From Atrina japonica (lineage: Eukaryota; Mollusca; Bivalvia; Pterioida; Pinnidae): a DNA stretch of 64,000 nucleotides. The notes under the pieces are model-generated. The model was not told the DNA's origin, made no database searches, and saw nothing but the letters and a program-made list of their open reading frames with translations. The DNA lies in assembly GCA_030159075.1 (NCBI GenBank), contig BROG01000649.1:124001-188000 (forward strand), written 5' to 3'. The translations under genes and the position numbers were made by a program. Positions 17,707 to 58,663 of the stretch are shown here, in pieces (positions within the stretch are counted from its first letter, which is position 1; each line of letters starts with the position of its first letter).

Positions 17707-18575
17707 CAGTACTCACAGCAAAACATGGCAAGTTGTCTGTCAATGGGTTCACGTTTCGGGGCATATTGAGCCCATCTCGGAACAAAATGTAGTGCGAAAA
17801 AGGTGTACTTGAGAAACTCTAAGCCCAAAGGGCTAAACCATTCACAATTATTACAAAGTCCTATAACTATGGCAGATATAACCGAATGTCGACCATAATC
17901 TAGCTTACACTTATTCTGAATGGCATGAATAAATGTACCACATTTAATTAAAATTTCGGAAAGAAACCCGTTATTTGACCCATGCTTAATCGACAGAACC
18001 TAAAACTGAATATATGAATATTAACATACACAAATATTGTATTTCTAATATGTTTTGCTTTCCATAAACAGTAACTCGGTGTAAAATCTAATCTCCGTTG
18101 ATCTAGGTATTGGAAATGTTCAAGTATGACTTGTCCCAGTTCCGAGATAACCCAATTGTGGTCATCGACGTATCATTAAACCTCTGACCTTAAGTTTATT
18201 TTCAAAATTTGCATAAATGACATTTAAGTGTGTCATGCGATGTAAGCCCGTGACTTACAAACTGCAGATAGGTGTAAATAAAAAATCTAGAATGCATAAG
18301 AAGGTAAAAATGACAACTGGAACGTCACGGACGTTAACAGATCGTTTTTAAACGGGTAAAACTCTGTATACTAGTCGAGGTACGACAAGCCCTCTTAGTT
18401 ACAACGACAACGGAGAATTTGTTTTACTATAAAGATTTACGAGTATTACGAGAAAAATTGTGGGAAATACAACCCATATTATTTTTTAAAATATTTTAAA
18501 AAGTATAGTGTAGGCCTATACACTAGTAGTACTGACAAAAAAATCTTAAATGTCTGTGTTATTGGGTTGAATTAG
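17707..18575. other. Intergenic stretch before the retrozyme dimer
   Basis: No supported feature. DNA is AT-rich and looks unique within the window. Confidence 0.4.
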
Positions 18576-18861
18576 TGTCTATAATATTTATAACCACTAG
18601 GTCGTTGCCACTGCTGGTGGACCGTTTGAGTCCCCGAGGGTATACATAAACCTAGTACCTGGTATTTCGATACCAGTTGTTCATCTTATACTAAGGGAAT
18701 ATTTGGCACTGTTAACACCATTTAAATTCGAAAATCTTCTAAAGCTAAGATAGTCATTTTTTTTTACAGTGGTTACACTTAGACGGATTTAGGCTATACT
18801 TTCAGATATATTATTTGGCCCTGTATGACACCACTTTATTTTTAGAAAAACACATACTTTT

Positions 18862-18928
18862 CAAATTGGAGCTCAACTGATGACGTCTAATTGACAGAAA
18901 CGGTATCGTCTTGAGCACTATAACTTTG
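18862..18928 (+). ncRNA. Hammerhead ribozyme, type I, copy 1
   Basis: Stem I pairs GCTCAA (18871-18876) with TTGAGC (18911-18916), 6 of 6. After an internal loop, CAAA (18862-18865) pairs with TTTG (18925-18928). Core box CTGATGA is at 18877-18883. Stem II is GTC/GAC around the loop TAATT. Core box GAAA is at 18897-18900. Stem III is ACG/CGT around GTAT, followed by C17 in the triplet GTC (18908-18910), with cleavage expected after 18910. The one departure is a C/A apposition at positions 10.1/11.1 next to the core, where G-C is usual, so activity may be reduced. Confidence 0.8.
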
Positions 18929-19219
18929 GTATTATGTCTATAATATTTATAACCACTAGGTCGTTGCCACTGCTGGTGGACCGTTTGAGTCCCCGAGGGT
19001 ATACATAAACCTAGTACCTGGTATTTCGATACCAGTTGTTCATCTTATACTAAGGGAATATTTGGCACTGTTGACACCATTTAAATTCGAAAATCTTCTA
19101 AAGCTAAGATAGTCATTTTTTTTACAGTGGTTACACTTAGACGGATTTAGGCTATACTTTCAGATATATTATTTGGCCCTGTATGACACCACTTTATTTT
19201 TAGAAAAACACATACATTT

Positions 19220-19286
19220 CAAATTGGAGCTCAACTGATGACGTCTAATTGACAGAAACGGTATCGTCTTGAGCACTATAACTTTG
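19220..19286 (+). ncRNA. Hammerhead ribozyme, type I, copy 2
   Basis: Same structure as copy 1 without any change in core or stems. CTGATGA is at 19235-19241, GAAA at 19255-19258, GTC at 19266-19268, and the stem I arms are at 19229-19234 and 19269-19274. The distance between the two cleavage sites is 358 nt. Confidence 0.8.
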
Positions 19287-19333
19287 GTATTATGTCTATA
19301 ATATTTCAATCATCTAAATGTCGCATTGAGAGG

Positions 19334-19344
19334 GGGGGGGGGGT
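19334..19344. repeat. Poly(G) tract
   Basis: A run of about 11 G just downstream of the retrozyme dimer. Confidence 0.85.
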
Positions 19345-19409
19345 GTCTCACAACACATGTTCATACAAACTCGATTAATTAATGACATGACATACTATGT
19401 ACACTCTGT

Positions 19410-19575
19410 AATTAAGGACTGTTTTTCATTTTTTTATGAAAAACATGGAATATATATGCAATGACTCATGGAAAAAATTCCAATGTGCAGCACTTTCGTA
19501 TTGCACATTGAATGTTTTCCATGAGTCATTGCATGTATTTTCCGTGTTTTTTTAATAATGAAAACAATCCTTATA
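19410..19575. repeat. Foldback (long inverted repeat) element
   Basis: The left arm has AAGGACTGTTTTTCATTTTT, AAAAACATGGAA and ATGCAATGACTCATGGAAAA. The right arm has TTTTCCATGAGTCATTGCAT, TTCCGTGTTTTT and GAAAACAATCCTT. The two arms pair over about 60 bases around a short centre near 19485. It resembles a MITE without coding capacity. Confidence 0.75.
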
Positions 19576-19744
19576 TTTATTTACATTACCATTTTCTGTA
19601 AATCCGTAGTCAGCTAAATACGAAATTCATTCTATTTAATCGAATTAATCGAATATAAATGCAACCGGTTTGTATACTTGCAATGAAGGAAATAACAGTC
19701 GGTATGTAAATATAAATACATGAATGGCAAACAGTCGATATGCG

Positions 19745-19940
19745 AGACTGCTTGCAGCGGTCGTGTGGCAGAGCGTTCGACCAGCAAACGAGAGGTCCCG
19801 GTTCGAATCCCGATGACTGTCAAGTCCTTAGTAAATCGCTTGGTATGCTAACTAAAAGTCATTCGTCTTTCTGGTGAGATTTAAAATCGAGGTCGGGTGT
19901 CACTACGGATGTGACAAATAAAAGAACTTTCAATACATCG
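19745..19940 (+). repeat. tRNA-derived SINE, family B head and body (plus)
   Basis: The head has an A-box region GTGTGGCAGAGCGTTCGA and a perfect B box GGTTCGAATCC. The body has 'ctttctggtgagatttaaaa' and 'tcgaggtcgggtgtcac', matching the family B order. It is not a functional tRNA gene, because the acceptor arms do not pair. Confidence 0.7.
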
Positions 19941-20041
19941 GCATCAGTCCATGAACTTCATATAAAACTGGTGACTTCTCCATATATAAAGTGAAATATG
20001 CAAAACAACTGAATAAAACAAAAGAAAATAAAAACGGTACT

Positions 20042-43186: not shown

Positions 43187-45255
43187 AGCTGGCCACGCTG
43201 CAATATACTTGACTGTCGCCACTTCACATATAGTAGGCCATGCTGCAATATACTTGACTGTCGCCACTTCGCATATAGAAGGCCATGCTGCAATATACTT
43301 GACTGTCGCCACTTCACATATAGTAGGCCATGCTGCAATGTACTTGACTGTCGCCACTATCGAAGGCATATAGACTTGAGGCCACGCTGCAATATACTTG
43401 ACTGTCGCCACTTCACATATAGTAGGCCATGCTGCAATATACTTGACTGTCGCCACTTCGCATATAGAAGGCCATGCTGCAATATACTTGACTGTCGCCA
43501 CTTCACATATAGTAGGCCATGCTGCAATGTACTTGACTGTCGCCACTTCGCATATAGAAGGCCATGCTGCAATATACTTGACTGTCGCCACTTCACATAT
43601 AGTAGGCCATGCTGCAATATACTTGACTGTCGCCACTTCACATATAGTAGGCCATGCTGCAATATACTTGACTGTCGCCACTTCACATGCAATATAGTAG
43701 TCGCCACTTCACATGCTGCAATATACTTGACTGTCGCCACTTCACATATAGTAGGCCATGCTGCAATATATACTTGACTGTCGCCACTTCACATATAGTA
43801 GGCCACGCTGCAATATACTTGACTGTCGCCACTTCACATATAGTAGGCCACGCTGCAATATACTTGACTGTCGCCACTTCACATATAGTAGGCCACGCTG
43901 CAATGTACTTGATTATCGGCAGTTCGCCTATAGCGGGAAATGCTGTATTTAATTTTCGGCACTTCACCTAGAAGTGGTCACGCTACAATGTAACTGGCCA
44001 CGCTGCAATGTATTTGATTTTCGGCACTTTGCCTGTATTTGGCCACGCTGCAATGTAACTGGTCACGCTGAAATCTCAGATCTTCGGTACGTCAGCTTTA
44101 GCAGGCCACGCTGTAATGTAGTTGATTTTCGGCACTTTACCTATAAGTGACCATGCTTCAATGTATTTGAATTTCGGCATTTCACCTGTAATTGGCTACG
44201 TTGCCATGTAGCTGGTCACACTGCAATGTAAAAATTTATTATCTCAGATCTTTGGTTCTTCAGCTTTAGCTTGACCTTCGGCACTTCCCATATAGTAGGC
44301 CATGCTGCAATGTACATGTATTTGATTTTCGGCACTTCACCTATAGCAGGCCACGCTGCAATGTACTTGATTTTCGGCACTTCACCTATAACAGGCCACG
44401 CTGCAATGCATTCGATTTTCGGCACTTCACCTATAACAGGCCACGCTGCAATGTATTTGATTTTCGGCACTTCACCTATAACAGGCCACGCTGCAATGCA
44501 TTCGATTTTCGGCACTTCACCTATAACAGGCCACGCTGCAATGTATTTGATTTTCGGCACTTCACCTATAAGTGGCCACGCTGCAATGTATTTGATATTC
44601 GGCATTTCACCTGTAATTGGCTACGTTGCCATGTAACTGGTCACACTGCAATGTAATAATTTATTATCTCAGATCTTTAGCTTGACTTTCGGCACTTCCC
44701 ATATAGTAGGCCACGCTGCAATGTATTTGATTTTCGGCACTTCGCCGTTAGATGGCCGCACTGCAATGTATTTGATTTTCGGCACTTCACCTTTAAGTGT
44801 CCACGCTGGAATGTATTTGATTTTCGGTACTTCGCCTTTAGCTAGCACTGCTGCAATGTAGAATTTATTATCACAGACCTTTAGCAGGCCACGCTGCAAT
44901 GCACTTGACTTTCGGCACTTCGCATATAGTAGGCCACGCAGCAATGTACATTTGTATTTGATTTTCTGCACTTCGCCTTTAGCTGGCCACGCTGCAATGT
45001 AGTTGATTTTCGGCACTTCAGTTATAACTGGCCACGCTGCAATGTCAAATTTATCATCTCATATCTTCGGTACTTCAGCTTTATTAGGCCACGCTGCAAT
45101 ACACTTGACTTTCGGCACTTCGCCTAAAGTAGGCCACGCTACAATGTATTTGATTTTTGGCAATTCACCTTTAGCTTGCCACGCTGCAATGTAATTGGTT
45201 TTAGGCACTTCGCCTTTAGCTGGCTACGCTGCAATGTAATTGGTTTTAGGCACTT
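43187..45255. repeat. Minisatellite, 45-bp period, about 45 units
   Basis: The basic unit is GGCCACGCTGCAATGTATTT plus GATTTTCGGCACTTCACCTA plus five bases. It is homogeneous at 43187-43910 (variant with GACTGTCGCCACTTCACATA) and again at 44280-44600, and diverged elsewhere. Because 45 is a multiple of three, several frames on both strands stay open (for example 43109-43777 plus, 43169-43681 minus, 44216-44605 minus), encoding 15-residue repeats. Equal openness of both strands argues that these are by-products and not genes. Confidence 0.95.
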
Positions 45256-45308
45256 CACCTAATGAAACACTTGAAAGGCCTGAAACCCTTTCCATTTGAA
45301 TTTGAATA

Positions 45309-55729: not shown

Positions 55730-55982
55730 ATAAAGAGGTTTACCATGCTAGTACAAGATGTTTTTGTCAGTGATGTAAGCACGCTGCCATGACTTAATCT
55801 GTGGGTTTGCATGAACATTTCTGTGCCCATCCCTCCCACATTATGAATTCTTAACACCTAAATGGATTGTCAAACTTTATTAATCCTTGGATTATAAGCT
55901 GGAGACCATCATTCTTGCACTCTCACTCCATTTAGTTTCACCGCACATCATTTTCAATGTCTGGATATCACATAATTAAGTT
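55730..55982 (+). other. 5' UTR part of the large neurabin-like exon
   Basis: Starts after the acceptor TTATTTTACTTTCAG (55715-55729). A stop TAA at 55977-55979 is in frame directly before the ATG, so the start at 55983 cannot be extended within this exon. Confidence 0.55.
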
Positions 55983-58288
55983 ATGTCATCAACGCTGAAA
56001 GAAGCACGGACAGATATTTTAGCAGGTAGTCGATTTAGAAGTGGCAGTTTAGTGTTTGATGACCAGGAAAATTTACCTCCAGAAGTCCAATCTCAAGTAA
56101 CATCTAAACTGGATAATTTAGCATCAATCGATCCAGCTCTCCGGAGCAGACTGAAGTTTGGTTCAAATGTTAGTAAAATGAAGGAGAGATTCCAACAACA
56201 GCCAACAGGAAAAGGAGAGGAACAAAAGGTTTCTTCTACATACAAACATTCATCTTCTGAATTGGATAAATCTCCGGAAATCAAAAGGAAAAAAACAACA
56301 GATCTTCATGCAAGAGGTAACCAACCTCTGTCTCCATCACATTCTGAGCATAACTTGCATGAACCTACAAATCATGTCCAAAGATTTAATTATACACGTG
56401 CCCTATTTGCTCGCTTGGAAGAAGAGAGTCGGGTTACACAAGTTAATCGTCCTACCAGACCACGTAAATTGTCACCCTCAGCAGGTCATACATCACCATC
56501 TCCAGTTCTGTCTCCAGTGACAAGTTCTCCGACAAGTCCAGAACCTAAAAAACGATCTCCATCAGAGGAAAGATTCCTCAGTTCACATTCCACAGCATCA
56601 GAAAGTTTCAAGAAACAGCGCTCATATTCAGAGTCCAGTGATAAGGAAGAGAATAACTTGGAACAAAGGTCCAGGTTTGACCAGAGGCCTTCATCTTCCA
56701 CTAAATCCTCAATACACTTGTATAGCAATGCACCGGGTGGATTGCTATGGAAACGTAGACAAGCTGAAGCAAAATCAGGGACAGATTTATCACCACGTGA
56801 TAGAAGTGAATCGCAGGACAGGAAAAATGCTAATTTTGATTATTCAGTGACCTCTGGCTATTCAGCATCTAAAAAATATCAGGGTGAAAGTAACTTATAT
56901 CCAGACAGAGCAAATTCCAGTGACACTTACAGCAGTAGGTCAAGGTCAGGTTCAAGTGATAGTTTAGGGAACAGGGGTAGGTCTTCGTCATCTGAGAGTT
57001 GTGATAGAACCGTTTCTGTGCCAAACACAAATATTACAAGTGATGTCGTGATGCGGCGAAAAAAAATTGACCATGGCGACAAAAAGGAAACTACCACAAA
57101 AAGACTAAGTCGTGAGGAAATTAAAGCGGCTCTCGATCGGGCAGACACATATTTATCTCACGTAACGGATCCTAGTGATTTTCAGGCTAAGAGACGATCT
57201 TGGGAATTACGCGAACAAAAATCAGATGCCAATGAATCAAACTTATTTGGGTGGTCGAAGTATAAAAACCAGCGTCTTTCACGTTCATCGGACTGTTTAG
57301 ACGAGAGAAAATCAGATAACAAGAGTTCAAAAGAAAAGACAGCAAATCATAATCATTTAAATGGAAACTTGTCAATGGATAAAAACGCTAATTCATTATC
57401 AGGTCAGACATCAGGGTCAAAGGTCACAGCTAGTGTTTCAGAGCCTGATATAAAGTCCAGAGATATAGATGAAGCTTTTGTGGCAGATGAGGATGTTACA
57501 TCCTTCTCAGCATCATATTCTAAAAATTCTAATACATCAAAGCCAGTAATACAAGAATCGGTCACAAAAACTTCAGCATCTCAATCGTCTAAACCCCCAG
57601 TTCCATTTAAACCTCCTATAAGTTGTAAGCCCAACTCAGAGACTGCAAAGATATCATCTAAACCTGTTCAAACTTCTTTAGATTCCAAAAAACTGACACG
57701 GCCTTCTCCAGTCCCACGTAGACCTGCCCCTGCAGTCCCCACTTGTCCACCTCCTCCAATTCCTAAAGTGTCTGGGAATGTTTCTGAAGTAGAGGTTACA
57801 ATACAGCCTCCATCTCCAACCTCTACATCAGAGGAGGTTACCTCAAAGGAACTTGATACTATTATACTTGAACAAACTCAGAGTGAAAGAAGTGCAACAG
57901 CATTAGATCAGTTTGTATCACTTATTGACCAATCAGAAAGCAGTGACTTTGCATCGGATATATATGAACCTGTCATTCCAAAAGAAAGTTATTCACAGTT
58001 ACCAGAACTTCCTCCACCACCACCTTACCCTAAGCCACCTCCCCCACCATACCCCACATCATCCTCATCAGATGAACCTCCATCTCCTGCACCACAACCG
58101 GGCTTCTCTGAAAATCAGATCACGACTCATCACTATGAAAATGTTAGCTCCTCCTCATATGTGAGATTACAGAATGATAAGTTGAATGAGGAATCGACAG
58201 ACAATGCAGTAGAAGAAGACTTGCTGTCCTCTCAAAGGATGGTCAACAGACTTACCTCGGAAGATGCTCAGCAGTTTATGAATAAAGG
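55983..58288 (+). CDS. PPP1R9: Neurabin-like large coding exon
   Basis: An unbroken 768-codon frame, by far the longest in the window, with an in-frame stop just before ATG and a GTGAGT donor at 58289. Overlapping short frames on either strand are shadows. Confidence 0.92.
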
Positions 58289-58663
58289 GTGAGTACAAGA
58301 AATTTTTTGAAAATTTTATCTACTGTACTGGTCATGGACCAGTAGCTGGCTAGGACCAGTAGCTGACTATTACATGATTTTGGCTATATAGCAGACAATT
58401 TTGAGATTTGAGATTTGTTTAGATCAGTCATCTGCTACTGGACATTTTTCTCAAACAGAAGGAAAAAAATATTATCGTGGTACATACTGAAGATGGAATC
58501 ACACCATAGCCAGCTCCTGATAGTATAGCCAGTCTAAGTCTGTGGTCCTCTGGGTGACCAAGGTAAAGTTTTATTGTTTGATCGCATTTTCATAGGTGAA
58601 TCCAATGATACATGTATATTTAGTGGTGCCAAGAAGGTAACATTCGCAGAGCCTGGAAGAGAG
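55983..58663 (+). CDS. PPP1R9: Neurabin/spinophilin-like PP1 and F-actin scaffold protein, N-terminal 782 residues (gene continues past window)
   Basis: Two coding exons (55983-58288 and 58624-58663) join in phase (GG|T). Residues 59-70 read FGSNVSKMKERF and 132-148 VQRFNYTRALFARLEEE. This pair, in this order near the N terminus, matches the actin-binding region of neurabins ('YGSNV..IK..F' and 'I.RF......TR.MFER'). A long Ser/Lys-rich disordered stretch follows, with a RLSREEIKAALDRADTYLSH helix near 375-395, then SH3-type proline runs (RPSPVPRRPAPAVP near 574; LPPPPPYPKPPPPPYP near 676). Exon 2 supplies KKVTF, an RVxF-type PP1-docking motif, at the place where neurabins have KIKF/KIHF before the PDZ domain. 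By family knowledge such proteins tether PP1 to actin at synapses and junctions. The PDZ domain and coiled coil are not in the window, so this is homology by motif order, not proof. Confidence 0.72.
58326..58533. mobile_element. MITE family H, copy 2 (in neurabin-like intron)
   Basis: ACTGGTCATGGACCAGTAGC at the left and ATAGCCAGCTCCTGATAGTA at the right. The interior words TATTACATGATTTTGGCTAT, CTCAAACAGAAGGA and CGTGGTACATACT are shared with 20042-20224. The left end contains a partial second copy of its own terminus (AGGACCAGTAGCTG). Confidence 0.75.
58624..58663 (+). CDS. PPP1R9: Neurabin-like 40-nt exon with PP1-docking KVTF
   Basis: Acceptor CATGTATATTTAG, donor GTCAGT at 58664. It completes a glycine codon from the previous exon and encodes GAKKVTFAEPGRE, ending in phase 0. 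The acceptor at 58595 would place a stop codon in frame, which supports this one. The open frame continues into the intron to about 58750 but has no other support. Confidence 0.65.

Follow-up and report, generated by a model that had tools for sequence, protein, structure and literature searches.

The window, a 64,000-nt stretch of contig BROG01000649.1 from the bivalve Atrina japonica, carries a short tandem array of non-coding units, each with a type I hammerhead motif. Its features, numbered from the first base of the window, are as follows.

18576..18589, + strand: truncated first unit, TGTCTATAATATTT, 14 nt, 5′-truncated (unit positions 345–358; from the sequence)
18590..18948, + strand: retrozyme unit 1, 359 nt (Tandem Repeats Finder and unit comparison)
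18869..18916, + strand: type I hammerhead motif 1; stem I arms 18871–18876 and 18911–18916, predicted cut after 18910 (motif search)
18949..19306, + strand: retrozyme unit 2, 358 nt, the reference for unit numbering (Tandem Repeats Finder and comparison)
19227..19274, + strand: type I hammerhead motif 2; stem I arms 19229–19234 and 19269–19274, predicted cut after 19268 (motif search)
19276 (unit 1: 18918), + strand: unit position 328, where 9 of 74 hammerhead-less tails start (tail start counts)
19281..19290 (unit 1: 18923–18932), + strand: box ACTTTGGTAT, common to the retrozyme tail and the 3′ end of a Penelope-like element (alignment of 3′ ends)
19287..19304, + strand: small predicted hairpin directly before the fixed 3′ end (pairing probability about 0.5–0.6, circular fold of the window's unit)
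19304..19306, + strand: fixed 3′ end of insertions (unit 356–358), putative start of reverse transcription (40 of 40 array loci)

The array belongs to the metazoan non-LTR retrozymes, an already described class of element. Tandem Repeats Finder assigned it a period of 358 with 2.1 copies and 98% matches, and the two full units differ at three places: A/G at 18714, one T of a T run near 18757, and T/A at 18858. The original prediction of a near-identical head-to-tail dimer at 18576–19306 was exact in its coordinates, which resolve into 14 + 359 + 358 nt. No stop-to-stop frame of at least 130 aa overlaps 18576–19306, and no direct-repeat ends of LTR type were seen around the array apart from the units themselves. 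G+C content is 0.349 over 18001–20000, low, as in metazoan non-LTR retrozymes. Unit size, hammerhead type, low G+C and the range of copies from dimers to multimers all match published metazoan retrozymes, in support of the earlier reading.

Two other features of the window were recorded. A large 45-bp tandem array (GGCCATGCTGCAATATACTTGACTG...) lies in two blocks at 43191–45261 with open frames running through it. A 770-aa open frame at 55980–58292 has molluscan relatives and no Pfam match; the few named matches to its stretch 55983–58289 include Pinctada imbricata (45% identity, 40% of the query), Lottia, Ruditapes and Mya. These relatives, like those in Pinctada of the Penelope-like frame described below, fit a bivalve host.

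The hammerhead motif and its conservation

Each unit contains the predicted type I hammerhead, in the order GCTCAA CTGATGA C GTC TAATT GAC A GAAACG GTAT CGTC TTGAGC. Stem I pairs GCTCAA with TTGAGC, the other helices pair GTC with GAC and ACG with CGT, and CTGATGA, GAAA and the GTC at the cut complete the core. The motif is more than chance, because a spaced pattern of this core matches 4180 times (2005 + 2175) in the 832-Mb genome while the reversed control matches nowhere. In canonical hammerheads stem II starts from a G-C pair. The window has C-A at this place and the commonest genome variant A-A, and a weak stem of three pairs remains.

Covariance models gave a different outcome from the motif search. 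The Rfam check proposed with the original prediction, which named the lack of a match among its refuting outcomes, returned no hammerhead at any threshold tried: the hammerhead families matched the window neither at the gathering threshold nor at E ≤ 10, and ten other retrozyme loci likewise gave no match at E ≤ 10. In free-energy folding stem I forms and the full hammerhead does not; the 3′ arm of stem I (unit 321–326) is paired with probability 0.75–0.98 in a circular fold. MicroRNA-like Rfam matches, all below their thresholds, were set aside; they fall on a long hairpin at 19439–19551, not on the hammerhead. This hairpin lies 130 nt past the retrozyme; its arms, each of 42 nt and 90% complementary, enclose 29 nt.

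Stem III is 3 bp long in the window's variant. It forms a near palindrome there and a full palindrome in the variants ACGATATCGT and ACGATCGT, so two RNAs could pair at this site. A second abundant variant, GAAACGATCGTC (L120–L193, for example L126, L141 and L166), has a palindromic GATC loop in place of the 3-bp stem III and may need to act as a dimer. A search of the fetched loci for other hammerhead families found variants of the present one alone.

The hammerhead is among the least variable parts of the unit. With one unit taken from each of 45 arrays, which had been picked by whole-unit similarity, variation is 0.65% per site in the hammerhead, against 1.86% in unit positions 1–278 and 3.6% in 327–358, and the hammerhead is the fourth least variable of 311 windows of 48 nt. 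Within the commonest type it ranks 44th of 311, at loci that had been selected by the core itself. The fourth-lowest rank contradicts another of the outcomes named beforehand as refuting the prediction, that genome copies would lack conserved stems and cleavage site.

Fixed 3′ ends, variable 5′ ends and single-unit origin of arrays

The genome holds thousands of matches to the retrozyme. An exact 25-nt tail occurs 5320 times, with none for the control, and the 358-nt query returned 4474 first-look candidates, 40 of which were scored and gave at least 136 matches. Many insertions are shorter than one unit; the arrays among the loci examined hold from about one unit to about 25 (the longest is L044). 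The first set comprised the window and 39 loci from the 358-nt query (40 array loci). A 78-nt tail query, with 40 of 1696 candidates scored, gave 19 new places, 14 of which form the second set, and the third consists of the first 20 loci in genome order that match the hammerhead pattern. Of the first 99 tails, 25 have an exact hammerhead upstream; the 74 without one make up a tail set.

Insertions end at one place in the unit. In all 40 array loci of the first set the 3′ end lies at unit 356–358, which is 36–38 nt past the cut site. At L061 the main array stops short at 295, and it is an older, 79% identical piece that reaches 358; L044 has an internal gap within its last unit. The hammerhead-pattern set, an independent sample in genome order, behaves alike: 15 of its 16 loci with a visible 3′ end stop at 356–358, the exception (L105) being interrupted at 324 by other DNA, and its other 4 of 20 run off the fetched stretch and stand outside the count. 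The 78-nt tail set was also left out, its query being built such that the end is forced to 358. Among the same 16 loci no second, tail-less 3′ end of the kind reported in Anolis was seen. The small hairpin predicted directly before the fixed end in the window's unit is absent from the best fold of the commonest variant's tail stretch. A separate 33-nt insertion of the retrozyme tail alone (unit 326–358) lies beside the array at L094 (283–315).

The 5′ ends are free. Starts of 66 insertions spread over the whole unit, and many insertions in the 78-nt tail and hammerhead-pattern sets are shorter than one unit. Target duplications of at least 6 nt flank 5 of the 66, with 0.8 expected from shuffled pairs (where present, the retrozyme criterion is >4 bp). 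Past 358, 36 of 48 insertions (control 30.6%) have a flank that reads on into a further unit for one base or more, and 13 of 48 (control 4.3%) have one that does so for three or more. Two explanations offer themselves: a preference of the enzyme for ATA targets, or base pairing between the nicked DNA and RNA that extends beyond 358.

One 5′ start recurs. Nine of the 74 hammerhead-less tails begin exactly at unit 328 (L190 with a mismatch nearby), while other positions between 277 and 333 account for 0 to 2 each. Across the genome the exact count falls from 2764 to 2603 when base 327 is added; on contigs C1–C3 the same step loses 9 of 54 matches, comprising eight loci that start at 328 and one point mutation (L167). 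A peak exactly at the cut site was sought and not found; the observed one sits 7 nt downstream, at the foot of hammerhead stem I, and may reflect arrest of the enzyme there. Among the array loci, 13 of 40 start in the last 45 unit positions where 5 are expected (P 0.0009), a range chosen after the data were seen and with four of the 13 starts placed by eye.

Each array looks copied from a single unit. Fourteen sites differ from array to array, with a second allele in four arrays or more. At these sites 260 of 263 array-site pairs agree within the 19 arrays that have at least two full units; three are discordant, against 21.8% disagreement expected between arrays. The nearest neighbour of a unit lies in its own array for 64 of 74 units, and divergence is 0.9% within arrays and 2.5% between them. 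Of 305 sites compared in truncated first units, 300 match the rest of the array, where 77% would be expected. Of 95 unit junctions 86 are seamless, and the other nine are offset by a few bases or belong to older, broken copies. The likeness of units within an array is put down to the array having apparently been copied from one unit at insertion, which narrows the original proposal of recent activity or homogenisation to single-unit copying at the time of insertion.

A tail shared with a Penelope-like element

The retrozyme tail shares a short box with a Penelope-like element. ACTTTGGTAT lies 14–16 nt before the retrozyme end, and ACTTTGGTA[TC] appears in 9 of 13 aligned Penelope-like 3′ regions, about 13–18 nt before the copies diverge. 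The full box is missing from the other four: L087 is cut inside it, L035 has TTTTGGTATC, and L066 and one L062 copy are without it. For eight 3′ ends, which are related to each other and so not independent tests, a shared run at a like distance from the end was reached by 4–39 of 5000 shuffles of the window's tail, by 4–86 of 5000 with the commonest tail shuffled, and by 1–68 of 3000 with the other side shuffled. Plain local alignment of the tails with four Penelope-like ends is weaker (11–230 of 2000 shuffles).

The two elements also meet end to end. On one contig (C507; L052, L077) a Penelope-like 3′ end runs straight into the start of a retrozyme of like orientation, the joint expected from a template switch. 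On two others the 3′ ends abut tail to tail (C290, L044; C146, L092), the latter with a 17-nt remnant of the Penelope-like end. On C575 and C181 the retrozyme lies inside a Penelope-like frame, in opposite orientations. The minus strand of L052 carries, at about 270–301, a mini-insertion of the Penelope-like 3′ end alone, like the retrozyme mini-insertions. On the plus strand of L081, two copies of an unassigned repeat, 171 nt apart (343 and 514), have the same ACTTTGGTATCTG box followed by an AT-rich stretch.

Co-location with the Penelope-like element proves nothing, because its abundance makes such neighbours expected. Pieces of one reverse transcriptase of this type occur at 13 of 53 loci. 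The genome yielded 47,311 first-look candidates, all 150 scored ones being matches, and at that abundance the 122,631 bases examined should hold about 7 such neighbours; enrichment of the retrozyme near these copies was therefore given up as an argument. The window contains no Penelope-like peptide match and one 49-nt UTR match.

The likely machinery is this very abundant Penelope-like element. Locus L194 (C567) has an open 782-residue frame, 60% identical to P0173 over 765 residues, with a weak match to RVT_1 (E 8.8e-4, below the curated cut-off); named relatives of the frame are found in Pinctada. P0173 has a GIY-YIG domain at 133–224 with the reverse transcriptase behind it, and L194 aligns behind GIY-YIG, its fetched stretch ending short of that domain, so that the endonuclease is known from the relatives alone. 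GIY-YIG stands ahead of the reverse transcriptase in five of five relatives scanned, four of which had been selected for a listed GIY-YIG, and precomputed annotation gives it for 12 of 120 relatives among the matches listed. GIY-YIG ahead of the reverse transcriptase is the order of Naiad-type elements.

Copying mechanism, alternatives and known systems

We favour, as reasonably probable on the sequence evidence, target-primed reverse transcription by a Penelope-like enzyme from one internal site of a circular retrozyme RNA. Arrays would be transcribed, hammerheads would cut the RNA to unit length, and a host ligase would close it into a circle, a step shown for published retrozymes. A Penelope-like protein with GIY-YIG endonuclease and reverse transcriptase would nick AT-rich DNA and begin copying at one internal RNA site, 38 nt downstream of the cut and just past the tail with box ACTTTGGTAT, a tail that the Penelope-like element's own RNA would also carry. 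The enzyme would run round the circle until it stops, sometimes where it meets the foot of stem I. An enzyme lapping a circle in this way would leave insertions with a common 3′ end, various 5′ ends and no set number of laps. The sequences themselves show the fixed 3′ end, the variable 5′ ends, the origin of each array from one unit, the 5′-end peak and the shared box; we infer the circularity of the template, the identity of the enzyme and the cause of the stop. The fuller reading stands at about even chances: that target-primed reverse transcription round a circle has left its fossil record in the arrays, with whole laps, a folded hammerhead as the stop, one copying event per locus, and a Penelope-like enzyme recognising the shared tail.

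A linear template would leave many of the same traces. Were the enzyme to act on a linear, partly uncut multi-unit RNA transcribed from an existing array of the same element, each copy would take its unit number from that array and again show a fixed 3′ end with 5′ truncation, a uniform source array would yield uniform daughter units, and the post hoc excess of starts in the last 45 positions would lie near the 5′ end that hammerhead cutting gives. Inherited differences between units should nevertheless appear as array-site disagreement, of which there are three cases in 263, and arrays of about 25 units (L044) would need an equally long uncut RNA; we regard a linear template as rather unlikely.

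A different enzyme, or none, is less probable still. A fixed 3′ end with 5′ truncation is typical of LINE-driven elements, and a reverse transcriptase piece that we take to be LINE-like adjoins one locus (L013, RVT_1 E 9.5e-15). Yet both the shared box and the joints between element ends favour the Penelope-like element, and target duplications are few, so that a LINE-type enzyme as the mover is doubtful. Ordinary satellite growth by unequal crossing-over, with the hammerhead incidental, would account for tandem arrays of uniform units, and the longest array may have grown so. We reject satellite growth as highly improbable because all 40 array loci combine a fixed 3′ end with a free 5′ one; many insertions below one unit and the low variability of the hammerhead also speak against it.

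By its description, the Mytilus galloprovincialis retrozyme (PMC7229834) is a close counterpart. It too consists of non-coding tandem units (about 350–390 bp in the mussel) in thousands of copies with low G+C, has a type I hammerhead that lacks the usual loop-loop nucleotides, and co-exists with Penelope-like elements. Mussel hammerheads, which are without most of these nucleotides, cut at about 0.1 per minute, and circular RNA and cleavage are reported for the mussel. Among the axolotl retrozyme hammerheads described there, those of one family have a mismatch at the base of stem II, as in the window; the axolotl hammerheads also show a short stem III with a palindromic loop, which resembles the present GATC variant and differs from the window's 3-bp stem III.

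Penelope-like elements themselves offer further parallels. In Anolis (PMC11167929) an internal reverse transcription start lies 85–92 nt past the hammerhead cut, against 38 nt in the present retrozyme; AT-rich targets, partial tandems and 5′ truncation are common to both. The Anolis element codes for its own protein and has two start sites, whereas the retrozyme is non-coding with one 3′ end in the compared loci; the available text of PMC11167929 does not mention retrozymes. Adineta vaga Penelope elements (PMC3846280) likewise form partial tandems and sometimes lack target duplications, but are protein-coding; their 31-bp optional tail resembles the 31-nt mini-insertions here (unit 328–358) in length alone.

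Animal retrozyme mobility has so far been a proposal. Copying of circles, probably by Penelope-like elements, is put forward in PMC7229834 and PMC7761336, and the available text of the latter describes retrozyme repeats as without a motif that tells which element moves them. In open-licence literature, judged by titles and abstract openings, we found no treatment of fixed ends of animal retrozymes or of a tail shared with a Penelope-like element. The available text of PMC7229834 gives no fixed 3′ ends, single-unit test or shared tail. A fixed internal 3′ end, arrays that derive from one unit each and a shared tail make retrozyme mobility directly testable, with the Penelope-like enzyme family and the 31-nt tail as the objects of such tests.
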